In this document: positions 10,376 to 11,421 of the stretch, in pieces
Layout: each line of letters starts with the position of its first letter
How positions within the stretch are numbered: position 1 is the first letter of the stretch
Source of the DNA: a virus
DNA length: 38,658 bases
Virus record (IMG/VR): IMGVR_UViG_3300037502_001005
Location: 1-38,658 of that record
Direction: 5' to 3' (one strand)
The notes under the pieces: model-generated
The model's database searches: none
What the model saw: the letters and a program-made list of their open reading frames with translations, nothing else
What the model was told of the DNA's origin: nothing
Program-made: the position numbers and the translations under genes

Positions 10376-10412
10376 TAACCGCATGCGGATAAGCCTTAAC
10401 CGTATGCGGTTA
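10376..10412. promoter_or_regulatory. Paired palindromic operator-like sites before the terminase genes
   Basis: Two 16-base near-palindromes, TAACCGCATGCGGATA (10376-10391) and TAACCGTATGCGGTTA (10397-10412), differ at only two positions and start 21 bp apart, two helical turns. They fill the gap between the methyltransferase stop and terS. The spacing suggests a dimeric regulator binding on one DNA face to control late transcription. No convincing -10 and -35 pair was found beside them. Confidence 0.6.
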
Positions 10413-10976
10413 TGCAGCAGGCTTTCTTACCCGCCACCACATCCATCCATCTTCCGAGACGCGCTCGGCGTTTGGGAATTTCTCAGTCACTGCGCGATTG
10501 ACGCCTTCCATAGGAAGATCATCACCGCCTATTGTCCCGCCTGCTTTGACCTTGGGCCACCAGGCTTCGATATCGGCCTTGACGCTGTCGTAATCGTGGC
10601 CAGCATCGATCCAGACAAAATCCACACTCTCATCCTCAAACAAATGCGCGGCCTGGGCGCTGTCTGAGCGAAGAGGCTTGATATGCACATGCGCCTTAAT
10701 CAGCGGCGCAATGTTGTTCTTAAAGACCGTGAAAAGGCGCTTTCGGTCAGGGTCAGCCTTGTGGGCGTCCTCGTCCGAACCTTTCCAATGGTCTACGCAA
10801 TAGAATGTGATGGGCTTGCCGGAATTGGCTATCTCAACACCCATGAAGGTTGCCGAGCGGCCCTTGTAGCTACCGACCTCAACAAACACAGCGTTGTCAG
10901 GCGCGTAAGCTACGGCTTGCAGATAGGCTTGGCGAAAACTGAACCACCCTTCGATCTGCTCGTAGTAGTGATCCAC
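10410..10976 (-). CDS. Class I SAM-dependent methyltransferase
   Basis: A 188-residue Rossmann methyltransferase (Methyltransf_24-like). Motif I is FVEVGSYKGRS (31-41), binding SAM. The acidic strand end is YCVDHWKG (59-66). Motif IV-like VWIDAGHDYDSVK (121-133) holds D124 and D128, followed by GGTIGGDD. The start is GTG at 10976, the first usable start in frame. Codons upstream in the same frame (WEGLGVNPSRRSKYEAN) also look protein-like but overlap a tRNA-like element and begin after a TAA. No DNA-methyltransferase signature (DPPY or PC) is seen, so a sugar or small-molecule substrate is likelier. Confidence 0.82.
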   Translation of the reverse strand: MDHYYEQIEGWFSFRQAYLQAVAYAPDNAVFVEVGSYKGRSATFMGVEIANSGKPITFYCVDHWKGSDEDAHKADPDRKRLFTVFKNNIAPLIKAHVHIKPLRSDSAQAAHLFEDESVDFVWIDAGHDYDSVKADIEAWWPKVKAGGTIGGDDLPMEGVNRAVTEKFPNAERVSEDGWMWWRVRKPAA

Positions 10977-10990
10977 ATTCGCCTCATATT

Positions 10991-11062
10991 TGGAGCGCCG
11001 ACTCGGATTTACACCGAGGCCTTCCCATTTTTACTGGGATGTTCTGGTTAAACTATCCGCGC
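10991..11062 (-). tRNA. Divergent tRNA-like cloverleaf, anticodon AAA, encoded CCA
   Basis: Seventy-two bases fold as a tRNA. The acceptor GCGCGGA/TCGGCGC has six of seven pairs. The D-stem is GTTT/GAAC, the anticodon stem TCCCA/TGGGA (5/5) with loop GTAAAAA, and the T-stem CTCGG/CCGAG (5/5); then T73 and an encoded CCA. Conserved T8, A14, R15, A21, T33, A37, G53-C61, T54 and A58 are present. The D-loop (AACCA) lacks G18 and G19, and the T-loop TGTAAAT has G55 and T56 in place of T and C. The acceptor end with U73 resembles tRNA-Gly, but the anticodon would read UUU. It may be degenerate or specialised. Confidence 0.5.
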
Positions 11063-11152
11063 AAAAACTCGTGCCGGGATTTCACCGGATGCCGGAGCCG
11101 CAGGGGGAACACTCCGTCTGCGTATGCTGGAAGGATACTCAACCAGCCGAGT
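11063..11152 (-). ncRNA. Multi-branched structured RNA region of unknown function
   Basis: The GC-rich gap upstream of the tRNA-like gene can fold, on the minus strand, into a closing stem ACTCG/CGAGT (11148-11152 with 11067-11071) around three hairpins: GCTGG/CCAGC, CGCAG/CTGCG and CCGG/CCGG. A T-tract (11063-11067) follows directly. The last hairpin loop TGAAATC looks like a T-loop lacking TTC, echoing the neighbour. It could be a complex terminator, a second degenerate tRNA or a regulatory leader. Confidence 0.3.
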
Positions 11153-11169
11153 CCAACGCGGGACGCGCA

Positions 11170-11421
11170 CTAGACCGAGGGAGAGGCGGCTAGTGGCTCG
11201 GAGGGCTTGGCTCGGTCGAGCATGCGCCCAATCGAATAATTCTTAAATCCACGCACTTTGGCGTTAGGAACAGTCCAGATCTCTCCGGTATCATCCATGA
11301 TGACCACCCAAAGAAGATCGTCTTCCTTACTGTAATCGATAACAGCGATGGCCTCGCCACCAGCACTCTTCTCAGGGATGTATAACGGCACCGATGGGTT
11401 GAGTTGCGTCAGACTCCGCAA
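11170..11421 (-). CDS. Small conserved phage protein
   Basis: An 83-residue protein read from TTG at 11421; a GTG at 11391 would give 73 residues. The body, AIAVIDYSKEDDLLWVVIMD then GEIWTVPNAKVRGFKNYSIGR, matches a pattern I recall in small proteins of alphaproteobacterial phages, of no known function. It appears beta-rich. The 5' end overlaps the preceding gene by up to 50 bp, so the start is uncertain. No membrane segment or metal site is visible. Confidence 0.65.
   Translation of the reverse strand: MRSLTQLNPSVPLYIPEKSAGGEAIAVIDYSKEDDLLWVVIMDDTGEIWTVPNAKVRGFKNYSIGRMLDRAKPSEPLAASPSV

Follow-up and report, generated by a model that had tools for sequence, protein, structure and literature searches.

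The window analysed here, a 38.7-kb virus record (38,658 nt, GC 52%), carries a real tRNA-like element of nearly perfect tRNA shape in which the canonical elbow, G18G19 of the D-loop with U55C56 of the T-loop, is absent. Our first choice among the readings, tentatively held at a probability of roughly 0.4, is a recently gained, phage-borne, non-decoding glycine-type tRNA. The element is unusual in that its 19-56 pair is broken as well, and in that a glycine acceptor is joined to an AAA anticodon.

The record comes from a freshwater virus of bacteria and encodes portal, large terminase, tail and integrase genes. The nearest terminase and portal sequences (<50% identity) belong to phages of Rhodoferax, Pelagibacter, Methylophilales, Microcystis and Sinorhizobium, and since the hosts of the closest named relatives are mostly Gram-negative, the host here is probably so too.

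The tRNA-like element and its altered elbow

On the minus strand the element reads GCGCGGA-TA-GTTT-AACCA-GAAC-A-TCCCA-GTAAAAA-TGGGA-AGGC-CTCGG-TGTAAAT-CCGAG-TCGGCGC-T-CCA (features in Table 1). An earlier note on this DNA had described a full cloverleaf, which holds for 20 of the 21 stem pairs; all stems are perfect except the acceptor, whose one mismatched position had gone unmentioned. The signature bases it had listed, namely the encoded CCA, T8, A14, R15 (here A15), A21, T33, A37, G53-C61, T54 and A58, are all in the sequence, as are the lack of G18G19 and the presence of G55 and T56 in the T-loop. The acceptor end, read earlier as glycine-type from U73, is indeed so (G1-C72, C2-G71 and G3-C70 with U73), and the anticodon is AAA as stated. 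With a D-loop of only 5 nt, the missing GG is partly a deletion, and its third base, C, faces U56, so that the Watson–Crick 19-56 pair is broken.

Table 1. Positions of the element, its parts and the adjoining features in the window
Feature	Position	Strand	Basis or detail
tRNA-like element, 72 nt, encoded U73-CCA	10991..11062	-	RF00005, 44.7 bits; sequence
Acceptor stem, 5′ strand GCGCGGA	11056..11062	-	Partner 10995-11001; 6/7 pairs, G5 vs G68 mismatch
D stem GTTT/GAAC	11050-11053 / 11041-11044	-	Sequence; cmscan alignment
D-loop AACCA, 5 nt, no GG	11045..11049	-	Sequence; cmscan alignment
Anticodon loop GTAAAAA, U33, A37	11028..11034	-	Stem TCCCA/TGGGA
Anticodon AAA	11030-11032	-	Sequence; cmscan alignment
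T-loop TGTAAAT (U54, G55, U56, A58)	11007..11013	-	T stem CTCGG/CCGAG
Discriminator U73 and encoded CCA	10991..10994	-	Sequence
81-bp insertion	10988..11068	.	blastn to L045, L046, L047; empty sites in L001-L003
Methyltransferase gene, class I SAM	10410..10976	-	GTG start; Pfam Methyltransf_24, E 6.5e-22
Structured leader, conserved	11066..11172	-	Alignment and consensus fold with L001, L003, L232; ends at insertion point

The Infernal check bore out the call of a tRNA-like gene: cmscan of the small region with Rfam aligned RF00005 over its full length (model 1–71), with a score well above the gathering score of 29. ARAGORN did not call the element in the whole window, and an Rfam scan of the whole window with default filters missed it, a failure confined to the fast filters. 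The cloverleaf is nearly isoenergetic with the predicted minimum (−22.7 and −23.8 kcal/mol, respectively). A stems-only search, in which no conserved base was demanded, found one cloverleaf in the real stretch, on the minus strand, against one in 128 shuffled single strands.

An 81-bp insertion upstream of a methyltransferase gene

In blastn alignments with the three closest relatives, the match ends at 10987 and restarts at 11069, leaving the site empty, and close relatives keep the methyltransferase gene without the tRNA-like element. No tRNA was found at E up to 1 in the parts of the close relatives that were searched. An assembly error may have produced the 81-bp insertion, but both of its flanks match the relatives. 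The methyltransferase start lies 14 nt downstream of the element's CCA, and the GAGG Shine-Dalgarno of that gene (10982–10985) is left intact. No sigma-70-like promoter was found near the element. An attachment-site remnant was also considered and set aside because the integrase gene is ∼10 kb away.

On the other side of the insertion, a structured element of ∼100 nt, the leader of Table 1, lies 3′ of the stop codon of a small ORF (11170–11421). It is much more highly conserved in L001, L003 and L232 than the flanking genes, contains four base pairs with both sides changed, and gave no Rfam match. In L232 the leader is kept, yet the methyltransferase and the tRNA-like element are absent at the same position.

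Coupled exchange of the elbow in phage tRNAs

We sampled tRNAs from phage and virus records, gathered without regard to elbow type. Among the 146 parsed, D-loop GG and T-loop UC were both present in 132 and both changed in 14, with no discordant case once four D-loop calls, cut too short by the script, had been corrected by eye. In all 14 altered tRNAs, 19-56 can stay Watson–Crick (eight A19-U56, one C19-G56 and five G19-C56), and a change of U55 to G goes with A at position 18. The rule 'Watson–Crick 19-56 plus G18·U55 or A18·G55', formulated on these same 14 tRNAs, fits 14/14. Shuffling the T-loops within this group gave an expectation of 7.8, and 14 fits came up in 2 of 20,000 shuffles. The same coupling of D-loop and T-loop was seen in further viral loci, a set partly chosen by the pattern.

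From these sequences, phage tRNAs appear as a general rule to change their elbows in coupled fashion, usually with compensation, and a literature search of incomplete coverage found no report of such exchange. The earlier claim that the elbow bases of the element were lost together is therefore right as to the coupling, which is genuine, but not as to a unique event, since coupled exchange recurs and is usually compensated. Like the phage tRNAs with exchanged elbows (A19-U56, C19-G56, A18·G55), which come from unrelated records, the element has both loops changed and a G55 with a possible A18; unlike all 14 of them, it cannot form a Watson–Crick 19-56 pair.

Individual loci illustrate the range. 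One contig (L048:7853–8372) carries a tRNA-Phe(GAA) and a tRNA-Gln(UUG), both without D-loop GG and with G55 U56 T-loops. A huge-phage tRNA called as Phe(AAA) (L051:3270–3347) has no D-loop GG and a UGUAAAU T-loop, and so shares its rare anticodon and its loop type with the element. The L055 and L062 families are found on contigs related to Pelagibacter myophages; read by eye, both have near-consensus promoters directly upstream of the tRNA-like, and L055 a terminator directly downstream. The D-loop (AAUAACA) and T-loop (UGUAAAU) of L062 fit the exchange rule (A18·G55, A19-U56), which makes an intact elbow of the exchanged form probable. L062 also carries a permuted tmRNA (231–438, 101.5 bits) on its Pelagibacter-type T4-like phage contig.

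tRNA-likes with a 5-nt D-loop

A pattern made of the element's D-arm and a loose T-arm, with the acceptor stem unconstrained, was found in 13 contigs, nearly all as complete cloverleafs. In the small, pattern-chosen set of 12 that results from adding L093 and the element and removing duplicates, nine have a third D-loop base that pairs with base 56 (5.2 expected, p 0.006); the element is among the other three. Covariation is strong in the acceptor and T stems of this class: in an 11-sequence alignment 92% of cells are paired, compared with 68% after shuffling, and both sides have changed in compensatory fashion in 7/7 acceptor pairs.

These tRNA-likes (L142, L146, L153, L093 and others) resemble the element in their GTTY-AANNA-GAAC D-arm, their often UGNRANU T-loop, their mostly intergenic position and their often encoded NCCA. 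Their acceptors and anticodon arms set them apart from it, 19-56 pairing is retained in most, and some look like ordinary tRNAs. L150 has the look of an ordinary tRNA-His. L146 and L149 resemble tRNA-Ile(UAU), and a T-A pair in the anticodon stem of one is G-C in the other, a compensatory change; since these look like working tRNAs, a short D-loop alone does not imply a non-decoding RNA. L142 has a GAAA loop and L153 a 4-nt loop, and judged by their sequences these two and L058 cannot decode in the usual way. The glycine-acceptor tRNA-like of L058 (1033–1117), called tRNA-Ala(cgc) by ARAGORN, has a long hairpin with a GCAA tetraloop at its tip in place of the anticodon arm. In L142 (6307–6795) a short-D-loop tRNA-like lies 13 nt downstream of a GOLLD RNA, and in L152 (10588–11463) another follows a ROOL RNA. 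In L100 (2800–2920), L127 and L133, which are different large phage contigs with many sequence differences, a cloverleaf with a 5-nt D-loop bears a greatly enlarged, branched anticodon arm.

For the element itself, blastn of phage and plasmid sequences in search of direct homologues turned up nothing beyond short chance matches. A scan with its D-arm pattern gave 66 matches, mostly in coding sequence, and pointed to L084, L093 and L100/L133. A common partner gene was sought and rejected, the neighbours varying among loci (methyltransferase, gp32-like, UvsX, clamp loader, DruA-like and peptidase), and thus no aminoacyl-transfer partner emerged. Conservation of a tRNA-like beside gp32 was rejected too: it is present only in L153/L238 and L093 among ∼22 relatives read, and in the ∼20 phages related to L153 that share the gp32-like gene, the gap that follows holds a terminator-like hairpin or nothing. 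Going by their placement in these genomes, phage tRNA-likes, the element included, come and go in intergenic gaps.

Comparison with staphylococcal tRNA-Gly and tRNA-Pyl

The earlier note had drawn a parallel with the non-proteinogenic tRNA-Gly that some Firmicutes use for wall peptides. A scan for a glycine acceptor end with a UGUAARU T-loop, in one genome per species for ∼85,000 species, gave 61 stretches. Every cloverleaf among them belongs to Staphylococcaceae and has a D-loop without GG (for example AACUCUUA), while ∼10 stretches from other bacteria do not fold into one. The combination is thus peculiar to staphylococcal non-proteogenic tRNA-Gly. In these tRNAs, the GG is changed to UU/CU and the weak EF-Tu pairs A49-U65 and A51-U63 are present (PMC4052509).

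The element shares with these pentaglycine bridge donors the U73-CCA glycine-type acceptor, the absence of D-loop GG, the T-loop type (UGUAAAU/UGUAAGU) and the broken 19-56 pair. It differs in its D-loop (5-nt AACCA, compared with 8 nt such as AACUYUUA), its anticodon (AAA rather than UCC), its T-stem (C49-G65 and C51-G63 in place of A49-U65 and A51-U63) and its host, which is probably not staphylococcal. The likeness thus stood, as one specific to Staphylococcaceae tRNAs, but a wall-peptide role is unsupported, because the host is probably Gram-negative, the staphylococcal T-stem signature is absent and the anticodon is not that of glycine.

tRNA-Pyl also has a 5-nt D-loop without GG and lacks U54-U55-C56, both as in the element. 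It is further marked by a 1-nt connector, a 6-bp anticodon stem, a 3-nt variable loop and a CUA anticodon, whereas the element has a 2-nt connector, a 5-bp anticodon stem, a 4-nt variable loop and AAA, and so is not of the tRNA-Pyl type.

Interpretation

We propose that a glycine-acceptor-type tRNA gene was gained recently as the 81-bp intergenic insertion, and that the RNA would probably be released by processing of a transcript running into the methyltransferase gene. Within it, G55 could have A18 as its partner, a feature of other altered phage tRNAs, although the elbow should be weak because C and U oppose each other at 19-56. Since it combines a poor elbow with a glycine acceptor and an AAA anticodon, such an RNA should be a poor decoder or none. 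It would most likely act outside decoding, as a chargeable or processable tRNA mimic that evades EF-Tu, the ribosome or elbow-recognising enzymes in the manner of the staphylococcal tRNAs. The cloverleaf, the loop changes, the insertion and the covariation of the class are seen in the sequences; the expression, processing, charging and function of the element are inferred. Counting for this reading are the strength of the cloverleaf match, the coupled loop change, the similar tRNA-likes without a usable anticodon, the covariation within the class, the promoters at L055 and L062, and the specific staphylococcal parallel. Counting against it are the lack of a homologue among the sequences searched, the close relatives without the element, the lack of a promoter, the acceptor mismatch, and the mixed functions among similar elements (L150, L146/L149).

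The second-ranked reading, somewhat unlikely in our estimate but not far behind the first, is a decaying pseudogene: an acquired tRNA gene losing its function, elbow and anticodon first. It is kept in contention by the absence of the element from relatives, among which it is unique to this genome, and of a promoter; the G5–G68 mismatch, the broken 19-56 pair and the disagreement between acceptor and anticodon also fit it. Random decay, however, would not spare 20 of 21 stem pairs, the CCA and all other signature bases, and the loop changes follow the recurrent coupled pattern rather than looking like random hits.

We consider it unlikely that the tRNA shape serves in cis, as a processing or stability signal in the mRNA (tRNA punctuation) and not as a free RNA. 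The short distance to the methyltransferase start codon, the intact Shine-Dalgarno and the presence of other tRNA-likes in operon gaps, for example after the gp32-like gene in L153 and L093, would suit such a signal. On the other hand, RNase P normally grips the G19-C56 pair (PMC4810234), which is absent here, and close relatives carry the same methyltransferase gene without the element. Least probable is that the element reads UUU as a working tRNA whose elbow is short and altered: the 7-nt anticodon loop with U33 and A37, the preference of this phage for UUU over UUC (191 to 120) and the AAA anticodon of the altered-elbow tRNA of L051 favour it, but that anticodon occurs in none of 148 phage tRNAs sampled, a glycine-type acceptor does not suit phenylalanine, and 19-56 is broken.

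Extending the non-decoding reading beyond this genome is more doubtful. Glycine-acceptor tRNA mimics that do not decode and have weakened elbows (the element, the L055 family, L058, L093 and L153) might be made recurrently by phages of non-staphylococcal hosts, which would put charged or processable tRNA to a use of their own outside translation, in convergence with the staphylococcal wall-peptide tRNAs; we hold this to be improbable as a general statement.

Since similar altered tRNAs recur in many phages, the element looks like a specialised or decaying phage tRNA and not like a molecule of a new kind. Such genes are missed or mislabelled by standard tRNA finders, which leaves inventories of phage tRNAs incomplete. 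The elbow pairs that phage tRNAs have exchanged together provide a natural experiment on the elbow contacts required by translation and by tRNA enzymes, and elements that break even the exchanged pairs are candidate tRNA-shaped RNAs acting outside decoding.
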